Assembly (NCBI GenBank): GCA_001606155.1
Contig: LODT01000025.1
Coordinates: 62,001-126,000 of the forward strand
DNA from: Tieghemostelium lacteum
Taxonomy: Eukaryota > Evosea > Eumycetozoa > Dictyosteliales > Raperosteliaceae
Direction of reading: 5' to 3'
Length of the DNA: 64,000 nt
The first letter of the stretch is position 1, and every line of letters starts with the position of its first letter. A model generated the notes under the pieces. That model worked only from the letters and a program-made list of their open reading frames with translations, made no database searches and was not told the origin of the DNA. Shown in pieces: positions 35,703 through 45,684 of the stretch. A program made the translations under genes and the position numbers.

Positions 35703-38700
35703 ATGAGTAATCACAATCGAAATTACTATAATTTTACTAGTAAATATAATAATAATCGAAATTATAATAATCAAAATAGTTATAATAATAACCAAAGCTA
35801 TAATAATCAGAATAATTATAACCAAAATAGTAATAATTACAGTAGTAATAGAGGTGATAATTCAAAAAATACACAATATTATAATAATAGAACACAAACA
35901 CAAAAACAATATACACAAAAAACAACATTAAAAGAAATACAAATTCAGAGGAATAGTGTAGAATCATTACAATGTAAAACCTGTAGTCAGAATATAGTTG
36001 GATTAGATTGGTTATGTTTTTATTTACCTGGTGGTATACAGGCTGATGGTTTAAATAGTACTAGTAAAGAGGTTCATTTATGTATACAATATAGATTATC
36101 TAAATCATTTTTAGAGACTAATAAATCAGTACAGATTCAAGCCAATCAAGATAGTAAACAATCAAAATACACTAAAAGGAATATCATTTGTATTAAATGT
36201 AATAGTGCAATTGGTGCTGAGACCACCAACTCTATGGGAAACACTTTTTATTCATTTGGTGGAAAAAATGTAAAATTAACTTTTTATAAAGGAAATTCTT
36301 CAAAATGGTCTGCTATCAGAGATCTTTTAATTAAAGAAAATTTAAATTTATTATTATCAAAATATTCTGATACTTTTTATCAAGATTCAGATAATATAAA
36401 TAATAATAATGTATGTTTTATTATAAAAAAATATATTTTTAAAATATTATATTAATAATTGTTATATTATAATAATAGAATATATCAAGTAGGGATACAG
36501 ATACTTTATTAAAAAATAAAAAGAGAAACTTAGATGAGGAAGATACAGTTGTTCAACAAGAGGATATTATAGTAGTTAAAAAACATAAAATTGATAATGA
36601 GACTATAGAAAAATCAAAAATAGAATCACTTCCACCACCGCCACCACCAATTGGAGGATATACTAAAGATGATGGTACACCTATATATCCAATGTCAGAT
36701 CCACAAAATTTGGATTATAGAAATTTAATTGATGCTAAACCTAGAGATTATCAATTACGTTCCTATGGACATTCTATAGCTCATTGGGTTGAGAAAAAGA
36801 AGAATTCTATAATTTGTTTACCAACAGGATCAGGAAAAACATTGATTAGTATGATGGTCGTTGCAAAGATGCTGCATTGTAATCCAATGAAGAAGGCTAT
36901 ATTTGTAGCACCTACTATAGTACTTACAACTCAACAATTGGAAAGATATAAAAGATCTATAGTTCAACAATATAACTTTAATATTCTTACTGGTGAGACT
37001 GTGGATGATCATTCTACAGTTTGGAAACAATCTGATGTACTATTTATAACTAGTGGTAAACTTAAAAGACTATTGGATATTCAACAAATTGATTTGGCAC
37101 AAGTTTGTTGTTTGGTTTTCGATGAGGCACATCATGGTGTTGGTAAAAGTATATATTGTGAAATTTTAAAGAATTACTATAACAAATTGTTACCAAGATT
37201 TAAACCATTGATATTGGGTTTAACGGCATCACCAGGTTTCTCAGATAATATACAAAAAACTGTTAGAACCATTCAAGATTTATCAGATATCTATAGTGCC
37301 GATGTATATAGACCAAAAACTGATGATTATACACCACCAAAAACTGAATTTAAAATATTGGATAACGAAGATGAAAGAAAGATTATTCTTCATTTTCAAA
37401 AATTTATTCAATTTCTATTGTCTTCCAATCATATAGAATTGGAAATTGTAGATAGATCACAATTATCATCATTGGTAAAATCAAATGCAGCTAATCACAG
37501 TCTCACAATGGCACTTAGAGTTTTCATTTTAACTGAAATGATACCAACATTGGGTATTCATCATGTATTTGAAATTCTATGTAAATATTTACAAGAGATT
37601 GAAGATAAAACTGCCAAATTATATCTTGACAAGTTTTTACAAAACTTTCCAAAATCTTTATTGGTTAGTACAGTTCAAGAAGAAATGGTAGAAGGTAAAG
37701 GTGAAGGTGAATTTTTTGATATTAGAAAGATTACAATGGGTGAAGATATCAGTAAATTTGGTAAAAAGTTTAAATTACTTTTAAATATAATACAAGAAAT
37801 AATTAAAGGTACTTTGGGTGAATGTAGAATATTGGTATTTGTTAAAGAACGTAAATTGGCATGTCAATTGGTTAATATGTTATCTACAATTGAATTTACA
37901 GAGTCATTGAACCCAACGTTTATCATTGGAAAGAATAGTAGTGGTATGGATTATGATAATGAACAAAAACCAATTCTAAAGGATTTTGAAGATGGTAAAA
38001 TTAGATTACTTGTCAGTACCAATGTACTAAAGGAAGGTTTGGATATCAGTAGTTGTAATGCAGTCATTTGTTATGACTCTGTTGAAAATGATCTATGTTC
38101 ATTTATTCAAACTCGTGGTAGAGCACGTTTAGAAAAATCTAGATATTTTATAATTCTAAATCATAAACCAGAGAGATATCTAGATGAAATTGAAAAAATG
38201 ATGATACGTGCTATAGAAATACTTCAACCTAGAGAATATCAATCAGTTTTAGATTTTATTTATAAAGTTCAACATGAACAACCATCAACTGATCAGTTAA
38301 TATCTAATAGTTTATCAATTTCCAATAATAATAATAATAATAATAATAGAGAGAAATTTAATCATTCTTATAGATTACATACATTTTGCCAAAAAGAAAC
38401 ACAACAATTAGAAGATAGATTTAATCAATTCTATGTACATGTTGATTATCAACCAAGTAAAAGAATTTTAAAAATTACATCAAATATTACATCAACCATG
38501 ATGATTAATGATTTGGTAAAAAAATGTAATTTATCTTCTATTTGGATTGAATTGGATATTTTACCTACTCAAAATAATTCAATTTTACCAATTTCAGTTA
38601 ATAATAATCAAAATCATAATATTAGTAAAACATATGAAATTAATTCTATAAAAAATGGAGAATTTCTATCAACTAGTAAATTTAAAGTAAATTGTAATTT

Positions 38701-41472
38701 ATTTGATAAATTAAAAAATTCAATTTATATGGATATTAATAATACAATGTTAACATTTAAACAACAAGAACCACAAAAAGTACCTGATAGTAATAATTCT
38801 ATAGTTTATTCGATACAATTACCAATCATTAGAATTAAAGAATATATATTGTTTGAATTCTCTGATTTATTCAATTTACAAGGGTATTCTTGTATTTATA
38901 TTCCATTAAAAGGTATACCTGATTTTATGGTTACACATTTCATTTTTGACCCCATTACAAAAATGGAAGATATTAAACATCAATTGATATCTGATAATCC
39001 AATTTCTAAATCAGTACTGAGGATTAAAATTCCCAATTCACAAGTAATATCATTTATTCAATATATAATGGTATCTTTATCAACTAGTATAAAAGTATAT
39101 TTTACCAATGGTATTACATCAAAAGGTTCACTATTTGATTATAGTGATTTAACAGAACAATATCAATTAACCATTTCAGAGTTTCCAATTGATGTAAAAT
39201 ATCAATTACAAATCTATGAAAATCAATTGGGTATTGGTTATTGGGATAGATTAACTATAGGGTATTTGAATAGCTTAAAAAAGACAATTAAAGATTGTTC
39301 AGGTACAGATGGTGGAATTTCAAAAATTCAAAATATGGAATGTAAAGATTTATCTTTGGATCTTTGTGATGCTTTGGAAAATAGTTTTCAGAGTGAAAAG
39401 AGACAGTTAAAGAATCATGTTTGGGTTAATAGGGTTGTAATAACTCACTATAGAACTATATGGTTACAACCCTATTTGCATCCACTAAATAGAGTATTAC
39501 GTAATCATTTGGCAGATGAATTCATCATAGTTCAATTTAAAGATGAAGATTTAAATGATTTGGATAGTAGTACAGTTAAACAAAGATTTTTAAATACACT
39601 AAAACAAGGTATATGGGATCCAAGTTCAAAAAAAATCTTTAGATTTCTATCTATAACTGGTACATTTAAAAGAAATGGTACAATGTGGTTTACAAGTTTA
39701 CCAGTTGATAGTTTGGTAACTGAAATTGGAAATATAAGAGAAAGTACATCAACACCAGGTCAATATCTACAAAGATTAAAATTGGCATTTTCAACTTCAA
39801 TACCAATTAATAAGACCTATGATTTCTCTATAATACCTGATCAAGTTAGTAAAAATTATATTCAGGGTCAATTGGTTCAAGTTAATTTTACTGATGGTTG
39901 TGGTAAAATTGGATCTGAATTGCTGAATGAAATTTCAGAGGATCTTGGATTTAGACCTAGTGCAATACAGATTCGTTTAGGTGGTTGTAAAGGTATATTA
40001 TTGGAAGATATAACTATACCAAAAAGATCAGTTCAAATTAGAGAATCAATGAAGAAATTTGATTCTGAAAGTAAAACTATAGAGGTAATTGAAAGATCTA
40101 GATATATACCATTATATCTAAATAGACAGATTATAACTCTTTTATCAAGTTTGGGTATTAAAGATGATGTATTTGTAAATTTAATGATTTCAGAATTGGA
40201 AGATTTAAGATCAGTACTCATAGATAATACATTGGCATATAAAGCTTTAGCATCAAAAACCAAACAATTTCAATTACCAATAACTGAAATTAGAGATTTG
40301 AATATATCATTTATTCAAGAACCATTCTATTATAGTTTGGTTAGAGAGATTTATTTGGAGAGAATTTATTATATCACAAAGAAATCTAAAGTTTTGATTC
40401 AAAACGGTAGATCATTATTGGGTGTTGCAGATAGTAGTGGTAAATTAAAAGAAGGTCAAGTTTATTTGCGTATTAGTATACCTGTAAATCTTAGTAAAGG
40501 TTTTGATGCTGAGGTACAACCAACCAATTTTAAAACTATCACTGGAAAGATTGGTATTGTAAAATGTCCTTGTTTGCATATTGGTGATTTTAGAGTATTA
40601 GAGGCTGTTGATGTACCTGAACTATCTTATCTCTATGATGTAATTGTATTTCCATCCAGTGGTAAAGGATTACCACATTTTCAAGAATGTTCTGGTTCTG
40701 ATTTGGATGGTGATATTTATTCTGTGTGGTGGGAACCAAAATTAATACCAGATCAAAATAGAGATCCATTATTTTTAGGCTCAAGTGTTAAAAAGACACA
40801 AGAAATTACAGTGGATAGCATTTCTGAACATGTTTTACAATCATTAATATCTAATGATTTGGGTAGTATTGCTAATTTACATTTAGCCTATGCTGATTAT
40901 TTGGGTGCAGAATCAGAAGAGGCAATTCATTTGGCTAAATTGCATGCCTATCAAGTGGATTTTGAAAAGACTGGTTATAAACCACATTTGGATATACAAT
41001 TGAAAAGACAGATTCTCTATCCAGATTTTATGGAAAAACAAGATAAATCCAATAGAAATTCGACATCGGCAATTGGTAAAATGTACAAGATGTGTAAGGA
41101 ATTGAATTTCTTACAAGTTGGTCAATTTAAAAATCAATTAAATCAGTTTTTTATCAATTTGGATAGTGCTAGTATTCAATTTCTAGAGAGTAGAGAAATT
41201 TTAGAAAATGAAATTAATATATTATACCAACAGTATCACAAGAAAATTGAAATACTTTTAAATAAGTATTCAATTGACAAAGAGGAAAAGATTATAATTG
41301 GTTGTGCTAGATTAGTTGGTGAATATAAAGGAGAGAATATAACTACAGTTCAAAAAGAATTGAAAATGATTATGGATTTTTATAAACATAAATTTGATTC
41401 ATTATGTTTAGAGTATTCAAATATATCCAATAGTCAATATATAGCTTCATTATGGTATAGTATTGGTACAAC

Positions 41473-41515
<43 letters not shown>

Positions 41516-43255
41516 CCAACTAGTACAAGTAAATTTTTATCATTTTCATGGATACCATCATTTGATTTAATTAGAAATGCAAATTTCAATATTTGTAAAT
41601 TTAATCAAAATCCTTATCAAATTATTGTTAATCCAAATAATGTATTGGAAACAGAAGTTAGTTATAGTATACAATTATTTTTAAATTCAGAATTTAAACA
41701 ATGGTTATTGGATGATATAGATCAGAGATTTAAATTAATTAGTAAATTGAAAGAGTCTATTGGTATTGATGGTTTGGAGTTATTACCATTTGGTAGTACT
41801 AGAACGTTACTGATTGAAAAGGATTCTGATATTGATTTGTATACTAGTACACCATTATCAATGGTCTATGAAAAATTACAAAAATTTGATCAACAAGTTT
41901 ATCAAATTCAATATCTATCAGATATTAAAATTCCAATCATCAAGATTATATCATCACAATTTAATTATCATGTTGATATCACCAATGATAATAATGGTCT
42001 ATTAAAATCTAATATACTATTGAATCAATTTATTGATTCACCTGGTGTATTCATTTTCTTTTATATTCTAAGAAAATGGGCAAAGTATAATAGTATGCTG
42101 GGTAGAGGTATACAAAAACCATCCTATTTTGATTTCTATTTAATAACTTGGTGTAAAAAGAATTCATTACTATCATCAGAATGGGATCAATCAACTAGAA
42201 ATCTTAATATTAAACAAATTATGGAGTTGATATTAAGAATGATAGAAGGATTTAGATTTTTGTCCAGTCAAACAGTATTTTCAGTTTTGAGTAAATTCTA
42301 TCAGGAACATTGTAATATCTCAGAATATATGGTACAAGATATTCTAAATTGGGAAGAGGTATTTAAAGCTGATGAATCTTATCTCTTAAGATTACATAGT
42401 CTCTCTATAGTGGCATTACATTCATTGACATTTTCTAGATCTGATATATCTACATTTTTCAAAATCAATAAGACTAGAACCAAGTTTAATCTAAATACTG
42501 ATTATAGTAAATACTATAAGGATAGAGAGATATTCTTTCAAGAGAAATTGGCAAAAGAATATCAATTACATAGTGTAGTCATTAAACCACAAAATAATCA
42601 ATCTAAAAGAGGGTTATTAACATTGGAGGCATATGGTAATCCAATGTCTATAAAGAGACTAGAAGAAGTATATCAGATTGCAATGAAATCCATTCAAGTA
42701 CCTTTCATTAGTAGAAGTTTTATTAAAGGTAGTATACTTTTAATGTTTGAAGGTAGTATATCATCCAAAGCCAAAATTCTATTATCACCTTACCAAGGTC
42801 AATTCAATAGAAATCACATTCACATGTTAAAATTGGTACCACAAATTGAAGATTTTGTCTCTGGTAGTATGTTAAAACAGTACAATAGATTCAATGAGGC
42901 ACTATTTAGACAGTTACAAGTACTACAACAAAACTCTCAACAAGATGTCTTACAAACTGCCTCTATTAGAGTTGGTAGTTTTTATCTATTAAATTTTGAA
43001 AAGTCACTTTATACCTATCAAATGGATATAAAATCTCTAGAGAAAATTATCTCTCGTTACAGTTCATCACTAGTAAAAAGAGATAAACAATTAGTATCAA
43101 AATTAGAAAAATCAAAATTAAAACAACAAAAGGAATTATTAGAAAATAATAGTAAAAAGTTAAATCTTAATACTATTAAAGAAAATAGTTCTCAAATTGA
43201 TATCAAAGATCAAACTTTATCATTTGGTATAAAAGTTTTAAATAATAATCTTCAA

Positions 43256-43329
<74 letters not shown>

Positions 43330-44035
43330 GAAAGAAAATATTGAAGAAAAGAAAAAGAAAAAGAATATATTAAAATCAACTAGTAGTTTTTTTAGTAATT
43401 GTAATATATCATTTACAAAGGCAATGACATTATTAGATAGATGGAATTTGGAAGTTGAAAGTTATCAAGAAACTTATTCAGTTTCAATAACTAAACCAAA
43501 TGTTTGTCTGATTAATCAGATTTTATCTGATAAATTAGAAATGATATCACAAACTTGTGATCCTTGTATATGGTTTTCTGGTACACTATTTCCATATCAA
43601 GTTGGTTCCATTGATCCAGTTAGTGGTTTGGCAAAATCTCAAGATCAATTGAGATTTTTAATATCTAGTGCTAGACCTTTACCTCAGGAACTCTATCAAT
43701 TGTATCCATCTCCTGCATTGGTCATGTCCAATGGTCAATTGGAAGTCATTGAACCACTTAGATCTCAAGTTTACTTTGCCAAACATAACAAGACAAAGAT
43801 TCTAAAGAAAAAAGTTTGTGATGATGGTACTAGAATTCATATCAACCAAGTGGTAATCTTTAATGATCTCAATGGAAAGACTGGTAAATTTCAATCCATT
43901 GTTCAGAATTTAATTGATTTAAAAATTTCTCTTCCACTACCATCAGTTTCAAATTACTCAACAAATCATGAATTTATTCAAAATTATTGGAATACTGGAT
44001 ATGAATTATCCCAATTTTTAAAAGATTTATTTTAA
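35703..44035 (+). CDS. Helicase-RdRP-nucleotidyltransferase fusion (RNA-silencing polymerase)
   Basis: Exons 35703-36410 and 36479-44035 join in phase 0 (GTATGT ... AATAG), giving 2754 residues. Order: Asn-rich start; Cys pairs C91/C94 and C163/C166; DEAH helicase with PTGSGKT at 351-357, DEAH at 451-454 and GLTASPG; helicase C domain with QTRGRARLEKS; cellular RdRP with DLDGD at 1644-1648; nucleotidyltransferase with GS at 2008-2009, Asp2020, Asp2022 and Asp2069, followed by a PAP-type central domain (FYILRKWAKYNSMLGRG). An Asn-run and an unassigned C-terminus of about 270 residues close the protein. D. discoideum RrpA-C are helicase-RdRP proteins acting in RNA interference. The transferase part corresponds to Cid12/RDE-3-type enzymes. 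All three catalytic motif sets look intact. Expected role: make double-stranded RNA from aberrant transcripts. Confidence 0.93.
43256..43329 (+). repeat. AAT trinucleotide run coding for polyasparagine
   Basis: About 24 uninterrupted AAT units inside the polymerase gene, read as Asn. Shorter runs of the same kind lie at 41473-41515 (same gene), about 27000-27033 (kelch-SAM gene) and, on the reverse strand, about 24836-24894 (NYN gene). Such runs are a hallmark of dictyostelid coding DNA and are length-variable. Confidence 0.9.
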
Positions 44036-44321: not shown

Positions 44322-44391
44322 CAAACTAAATAGATTGTCATCAGTTTTAACAGCATTATAATTTAAAACTGATGACAATCTATTTAGTTTG
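44322..44391. repeat. Perfect 29-base inverted repeat with 12-base loop
   Basis: Left arm 44322-44350 and right arm 44363-44391 are exact reverse complements (29 of 29), separated by 44351-44362. Each arm, read outward from the loop, gives the same peptide fragment KTDDNLFSL, so this looks like a foldback of a once-coding fragment and not a designed terminator. It lies 287 bases past the polymerase stop codon and just before the LTR-element remnant. Confidence 0.9.
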
Positions 44392-45404: not shown

Positions 45405-45487
45405 TCCAAGGTAGCATAATTGGCAGTGCGTGTATCTCGTAATTTTACATGATAATACACGATCCAGGTTCAAACCCTGGCCTTGGA
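45405..45487 (+). tRNA. tRNA with 12-base intron, anticodon read as CGT (Thr)
   Basis: Cloverleaf: acceptor TCCAAGG (45405-45411) pairs with CCTTGGA (45481-45487). D stem is GCAT/GTGC, anticodon stem TGTAT/ATACA, T stem CCAGG/CCTGG with loop TTCAAAC. The anticodon loop is CT-CGT-A plus a final A after an intron at 45442-45453, the canonical position between bases 37 and 38. The mature length is 71. Internal promoters fit: A box TAGCATAATTGG (45412-45423) and B box GGTTCAAACCC (45467-45477). A long T-run from 45493 is the Pol III terminator. The isotype is read from the loop only. The T1-A72 pair is unusual, so Thr is less certain than the tRNA call. Confidence 0.88.
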
Positions 45488-45684
45488 ATCAATTTTTTTT
45501 TTTTTTTGCAATGGACCATGTTCAGAATTGTGGATGGTTTTTTTAGAATTGTAGATAAATTAAAACAATATCAATATCCGTATTTGGCGTATACTTTGCC
45601 AAGTCAGCAATGTCAAAGTTTTATCAAAAAAAAAAAAAAAATTTAATCATTTTTATAAAATTTAACAGCAATACAATATAGAAA

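Follow-up and report, generated by a model that had tools for sequence, protein, structure and literature searches.

The gene at 35703-44035 of the DNA analyzed here raises the question of whether a helicase, a cellular RNA-dependent RNA polymerase (RdRP) and an RNA-tailing nucleotidyltransferase can be carried by one polypeptide and, if so, which RNA the transferase would tail. The DNA, called the window below, is a stretch of 64,000 nt from Tieghemostelium lacteum (GenBank assembly GCA_001606155.1, contig LODT01000025.1, positions 62,001 to 126,000 of the forward strand), and all positions are counted from its first nucleotide unless a different locus is named. A single frame in the second exon of the gene spans a helicase of superfamily 2 (SF2), followed by a cellular RdRP and then by a nucleotidyltransferase of the polymerase-beta type (Table 1). 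Fusions of helicase and RdRP have already been published; the transferase in the same chain appears to be the new part. The literature searched, which covered few subscription papers and was available in part, yielded no account of a transferase in dictyostelid RdRPs, and the one paper that combined Dictyostelium, RdRP and nucleotidyltransferase concerns Thg1, to judge by its title. The automatic domain annotation of databases could already display the transferase match.

The reading frame and its three domains

The first-pass annotation of this DNA had placed helicase, RdRP and transferase in one frame, and the open reading frame (ORF) listing, the splice model and the Pfam matches agree with it on this point. 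Its claim that the frame runs unbroken from 35703 had to be abandoned in favor of two exons separated by an intron (36411-36478). The donor at 36411 is common to all five frame-keeping splice options listed, and of these we adopted the model whose middle looks most like an intron; it reproduces the residue numbers of the earlier annotation. From the ATG at 36692, the ORF listing gives 2447 codons without a stop, in DNA with a GC content of 26-27%.

Table 1. Features of the helicase-RdRP-nucleotidyltransferase gene, in window coordinates
Feature	Position	Strand	Basis and remarks
Whole gene	35703-44035	+	Two exons, 68-nt intron; product of 2754 aa
Exon 1	35703-36410	+	Splice model; Asn-rich start, then region with two Cys pairs
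Intron	36411-36478	+	68 nt, 5.9% GC
Exon 2	36479-44035	+	Stop-free up to TAA at 44033-44035
Helicase lobe 1 (ResIII/DEAD; GSGKT, DEAH, TAS)	36737-37237	+	Pfam, PDB search, motifs; RIG-I/MDA5/Dicer type
Helicase lobe 2 (Helicase_C, QTRGRAR)	37787-38125	+	Pfam, motif
Cellular RdRP domain	39440-41092	+	PF05183; catalytic DLDGD, aa 1644-1648, at 40700-40714
Nucleotidyltransferase palm (MTPAP-like_central)	41714-42028	+	PF22600, own-genome profile, signature
Palm motifs	GS 41792-41797; Asp2020 41828-41830; Asp2022 41834-41836; KIPIIKI from 41927; Asp2069 41975-41977	+	
Divergent central domain	42029-42535	+	WAK helix (from 42077) and PSY motif (from 42119) recognizable; PAP_assoc not
Small domain, possible	42536-42682	+	DUF7636, 0.043 and 0.011, both below cut-off
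C-terminal extension, 444 aa	42701-44032	+	Divided by an Asn tract; lies past the end of the paralogue's frame (alignment)

The apparent fusion could be an artefact of the gene model, with two adjoining genes, or with transcripts that end before the transferase. The gene model is known from DNA alone, and the DNA that joins the RdRP to the transferase includes an Asn tract (41471-41520) with a GC content of 8%, covered by an intron-like, frame-preserving stretch (41455-41523) whose splicing would leave the fusion intact. The lowest GC values over 80 nt (17.5% directly downstream of the RdRP, 16.3% within the part that encodes the transferase) are little above the intergenic values of 15% upstream and 12.5% downstream of the gene. 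GC level is a weak argument for one gene and by itself does not discount a two-gene model. First-position GC is 0.40 in the RdRP and drops to 0.30-0.31 downstream of it. Against an artefact stand the length of the open frame in such AT-rich DNA, the stretch from RdRP to transferase without any stop codon in frame, and the order of GC content among codon positions, which is maintained through the RdRP/transferase junction. In addition, the linker that directly follows the RdRP aligns with the paralogue described below (z of 4.2 in local and 4.5 in global alignment, matched by 1 and 0 of 500 shuffles, respectively). The two-gene model was disfavored on the basis of the open frame and codon-position GC, and we consider an artefact of any of these kinds very improbable.

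For residues ~1990-2250, the part that the first-pass annotation had ascribed to a nucleotidyltransferase, comparison with Pfam profiles gave a significant match: MTPAP-like_central (PF22600) matched at E 1.5e-8 with 35.3 bits vs. a curated Pfam cut-off of 27. This family represents the palm of poly(A) polymerases of the mitochondrial type. Seven other places in the genome match it, and five of these were used to build an own-genome profile; two short pieces that probably belong to one gene (L009 and L010) were excluded, and L004 contributed a partial frame. With this profile, the fused domain scored 33.9 bits when the C-terminal part was searched and 32.1 bits when the whole protein was, against 10.2 bits for the best of 400 shuffles, and the profile alignment pairs FGS, DSDID, KIPIIKI, HVDI and WAK. 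KIPIIK and WAK are common to the window protein and the genome's own poly(A)-polymerase-like proteins. We also searched for the signature hG[GS]x(9-13)DhDh...hDh in an Asp-only form. It occurs a single time in the window protein, at residue 2007, and in all five own-genome frames used. Among 2000 shuffles each, it arose by chance 3 times with residues 1881-2500 and 15 times with the whole protein; with Asp or Glu allowed, the counts were 10 and 102, respectively. GS 2008-2009, Asp2020, Asp2022 and Asp2069 of the 2754-residue model were all found at the numbers first given for them. Because of the own-genome profile score and the behavior of the signature against shuffles, we take a palm with three aspartates to be more than a chance resemblance. 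Since the elements of a polymerase-beta-type palm (hG[GS], [DE]h[DE]h and a third h[DE]h), as in non-canonical poly(A)/(U) polymerases, are present, a tailing activity is predicted, and the domain match within one open frame supports the earlier proposal that a third activity is encoded in the same chain.

Several results weigh against this assignment. NTP_transf_2 stayed below its cut-off with the whole frame (0.033) and with the fragment (0.0054), no model of NCBIfam, a prokaryote-centered library, matched the transferase fragment, and the transferase matches in a phmmer search of the PDB were weak (CutA, 0.011; poly(A) RNA polymerase protein 2, 3nyb, 0.42). PAP_assoc (PF03828) has six matching places across the genome, and the contig of the window contains none of these. 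An AlphaFold2 model of residues 1923-2401, computed without an alignment, had a mean predicted local distance difference test score (pLDDT) of 34.2 and was unusable. Moreover, the comparison covered one species, so that the aspartates are documented for a single orthologue. Of the PAP-like central domain proposed earlier, the WAK helix and the PSY motif are recognizable, but the own-genome profile match stops at the WAK helix and PAP_assoc was not detected in the protein. The best PDB row for the transferase part (NDC1, 0.0008) and a Nup88 row were matches to Asn tracts and were disregarded.

The polymerase part matches PF05183 at 1.1e-126 over profile positions 1-581 of 582, and a PDB search returned 7w84 (4.1e-71) as best match and RNA-dependent RNA polymerase 2 (7eu0) at 1.6e-65, both of them plant enzymes. 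By its domain match and DxDGD motif, this part is assigned to the cellular RdRPs. In the helicase part, PTGSGKT (351-357), DEAH (451-454), GLTASPG (483-489) and QTRGRAR (780-786) were located in the 2754-residue model, and the Pfam matches were to ResIII (3.1e-22), DEAD (1.6e-21) and Helicase_C (2.7e-14). Its best matches among solved structures were MDA5 (IFIH1; 6.6e-32), FANCM (1.3e-30), 1wp9 (1.5e-29), a Hef-type helicase, and Dicer-like 4 (2e-29), followed by LGP2, RIG-I and Dicers. The top NCBIfam model was the Hef nuclease (4.5e-50), below the cut-off of that model. With both lobes present and its closest solved relatives in this group, the helicase is assigned to the RIG-I/MDA5/Dicer type of SF2.

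How does this arrangement compare with known systems? The RrpA, RrpB and RrpC proteins of Dictyostelium discoideum, like the window protein, hold helicase and RdRP in one large chain, and were correctly named as helicase-RdRPs in the first reading of this DNA (PMC3661229, PMC4791657). A transferase is not ascribed to them in the literature passages available, and the word "nucleotidyl" is absent from the texts of PMC3661229 and PMC11014262; the comparison with these proteins is one of published descriptions. Helicase-RdRPs of oomycetes, Hydra and Nematostella have the same order of DEAD, Helicase_C and RdRP, and the published domain legends, which are what is compared here, list no transferase (PMC4791657).

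The protein had also been called an RNA-directed RNA polymerase complex (RDRC) in a single chain, with its helicase equated with Hrr1. The composition given for the Schizosaccharomyces pombe complex, Rdp1, Hrr1 and Cid12, agrees with PMC4050365, and in that complex an RdRP works jointly with a helicase and with a predicted poly(A) polymerase, as the domains of the window protein may do (PMC4050365, PMC9276528). In S. pombe, however, these are separate subunits, and Hrr1 is the orthologue of ZNFX-1 (PMC9276528), whereas the window protein is a single chain with a helicase that resembles RIG-I, MDA5 and Dicer. The best 60 of 72 PDB matches of this helicase comprise MDA5/RIG-I/LGP2, Dicer, FANCM, Hef-type and a few other SF2 proteins, with no ZNFX1 or Hrr1 name among them; a direct alignment with Hrr1 was not made, nor was the PDB checked for the presence of a ZNFX1 chain. 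The equation with Hrr1 is therefore not supported, and the protein is RDRC-like rather than a fused RDRC: the analogy is one of activities, in which the RdRP and the transferase palm have their counterparts and the helicase is of another type. By this analogy, the window protein may work like RDRC plus a tailing enzyme.

The paralogue and the probable link to RrpC

A search of the 23.3-Mb genome found two RdRP genes, the second of which (L003, on contig C29) shares the helicase-RdRP domain plan with the window gene; the RdRP domains of the two are 35% identical. The apparent first exon of L003, delimited by eye, begins with MTDVKFYQ and runs directly into the helicase, and the gene has DEVH as motif II, QRRGRAR and DLDGD. 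DEVH has been reported for Dictyostelium RdRPs (PMC4791657). At ~2140-2242 of L003, a short intron that divides helicase motif I (STGMG/KT) was recognized by eye; a scripted join search found none under its limits.

Peptides encoded by published D. discoideum primers were compared with both genes. The peptide of primer 0022, an rrp primer listed under the lox/rox probe (PMC3661229), has its best match in L003 (score of 39 vs. 25 in the window protein), as does that of rrpB-02 (31 vs. 22), whereas rrpA-01 favors the window protein (20 vs. 18) and several short rrpA/B peptides do not discriminate. As DNA, six published rrp primers matched both genes at background level, with 16-20 of 27-29 bases at best. 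L003 is probably of the RrpA/B type, and the window gene would therefore, by elimination, probably be RrpC-like, with DDB_G0280963 as the RrpC of D. discoideum. That the assignment is made by elimination weighs against it, as do the rrpC primer peptides of two papers, which match neither gene clearly (best scores of 24 in the window protein and 21 in L003).

The two genes differ where the transferase lies. The signature search found no catalytic signature in L003, and in the alignment of the corresponding position GS is kept while the first Asp is replaced by Lys, the third by Ser, and KIPIIK is missing. A 526-aa C-terminal fragment of L003 matched MTPAP-like_central at 0.011, the sole Pfam family at E up to 5; at the same threshold, a scan of the whole 2006-aa frame did not list it. 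When the window domain alone was made into a profile, L003 scored 0.1 bits, under several of 500 shuffles (best 10.4), neither the combined profile nor the five-frame profile found a domain in its C-terminal part, and hhalign gave a probability of 0.3, on a different stretch. Shuffling of L003 vs. the window protein gave z values (local and global) of 1.58 and 1.57 over the whole part; the palm reached 0.27 and 1.33, and the remainder 1.82 and 0.93. None of these direct comparisons was significant. From its position only, it is plausible that the C-terminal part of L003 shares ancestry with the transferase, and to call it a degenerate transferase is an uncertain reading rather than a result.

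If the two regions are homologous, the absence of two aspartates and KIPIIK from the paralogue means that activity may have been lost within the family. The fold in the window protein could likewise have been retained as a catalytically idle module for RNA binding or scaffolding, a suggestion to which the undetectable PAP_assoc and, again subject to homology, the loss of two of three aspartates and KIPIIK in the paralogue lend some weight. GS, all three aspartates, KIPIIK and WAK are nevertheless retained in the window protein, which would be unusual for a drifting idle module, and we think this explanation unlikely. An active transferase in one gene and a paralogue without the signature would fit a division of labor in which one of the two makes tails. 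Scans of viral and genome contig collections with an alignment of the two RdRPs gave 63 and 103 pattern matches, none of which was confirmed; for eukaryotes, the searches covered the window's own genome.

Template or product as the RNA to be tailed

In the Tetrahymena Rdr1 complexes, the RdRP is physically associated with nucleotidyltransferases that are separate subunits, and why the yeast and Tetrahymena RdRP complexes carry transferases, and whether these act on the template, on the product or on bystander RNAs, is unsettled. The tails of poly(UG) in Caenorhabditis elegans are one answer: RDE-3 (MUT-2) adds a tail to the 5' fragment that cleavage of a target leaves, and RdRPs are recruited by this tail (PMC9276528). 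With three domains in one frame, and the catalytic motifs that we checked intact in each, a comparable route from tailing to copying can be proposed for the window protein, in cis rather than by separate proteins as in C. elegans. The chances seem to us about even that it is a trifunctional RNA-silencing polymerase, probably of the RrpC type, that extends the 3' end of a target after cleavage with a tail and copies that target in cis. In such a mechanism, the helicase would hold or open the target RNA, and the transferase would put a short untemplated tail on the free 3' end created by cleavage. The RdRP, kept on the same RNA, would then begin on or near the tailed end and copy toward the 5' end of the target, so that one protein would combine tailing with copying, and the resulting duplex would be cut by a Dicer without a helicase of its own.

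The last step has some parallel in the genome. Six places match RNase III, and the one frame that we examined, which accounts for two of them (L024, 721-4290 on the minus strand), is Dicer-like, with 1188 aa and two RNase III stretches; a helicase domain was not detected in it even with the E limit at 0.1. Dictyostelium Dicers are described as lacking a DEAD domain (PMC4791657). Given these Dicers without a helicase, it appears to be the RdRP that carries the helicase of Dicer type.

The proposed order of tailing and copying fits the genetics of D. discoideum, since small interfering RNAs (siRNAs) 5' of a hairpin trigger vanish only upon deletion of rrpC or drnB, that is, 5' spreading needs RrpC and DrnB (PMC3661229). 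RrpC also controls DIRS-1 (PMC5633606). The same genetics contains two points that speak against our proposal: the 5' siRNAs were dispensable for silencing of the reporter (PMC3661229), and the response to an earlier hairpin construct required RrpA (cited in PMC3661229). We further consider it possible, though at the tentative end, that the single polypeptide marks its own template, that the tail licenses amplification and 5' spreading, and that the paralogue is a copier without marking.

The transferase could also be active on products instead of templates, tailing siRNAs or Argonaute-bound RNAs or marking RNAs for decay, with the RdRP doing no more than delivering it. Oligo-adenylated small RNAs occur in Entamoeba (PMC7724847), untemplated adenosines occur on Argonaute-bound siRNAs of fission yeast (cited in PMC7724847), and neither the substrate nor the base added can be read from sequence. 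Fusion to an enzyme that copies templates suits template ends better, as does the part that RrpC plays in 5' spreading, and although neither excludes the tailing of products, we regard that as rather unlikely.

The fusion couples the tailing and copying domains one to one, and the question of template or product could thereby be addressed by point mutation in a genetically tractable lineage. If the template-marking reading is true, two aspartate changes would separate tailing from copying in the living amoeba. Should RrpC of D. discoideum share this domain, a possible tailing enzyme was removed together with the RdRP in the rrpC knock-outs, and the loss of 5' spreading and derepression of DIRS-1 seen in them would need to be read anew.

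Other parts of the protein and neighboring loci

The zinc beta-tent fold occurs in Yippee, Mis18 and the C-terminal domain of RIG-I, and it is possible that the N-terminal part of the window protein contains it as well. Exon 1 encodes two Cys pairs (region 35940-36410; CKTC at residues 91-94 and CIKC at 163-166), possibly zinc-binding, and Pfam gave a weak match to Yippee-Mis18 (0.013, below cut-off). A PDB search with this region returned a single row that is not relevant (E 1.5), and an AlphaFold2 model made without an alignment, with a mean pLDDT of 32.8, was unusable.

The small domain that may follow the transferase part, and that we take to be KH-like by resemblance alone, was unlisted when the whole frame or 42380-43420 was scanned with Pfam. 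For the C-terminal extension, neither a Pfam family above its cut-off nor a relative in the PDB was found. Neither this extension nor the N-terminal Cys-pair region was seen in the paralogue, whose upstream exons were not searched.

Around the gene, 10 of 30 listed frames between 26024 and 55864 were scanned. They matched Kelch-SAM, copine, GH63, P450, DUF1764, CBM49, WD40, an AMP-binding enzyme and, weakly, HEAT, with one frame matchless; no silencing gene was among these ten. A perfect 29-bp inverted repeat with arms 12 nt apart lies at 44322-44391, ~290 bp downstream of the stop codon, and is not among the Rfam matches at gathering score. Farther downstream, Rfam identified a tRNA gene at 45405-45488 (51.2 bits), which, given its length of 84 nt, perhaps contains a small intron.

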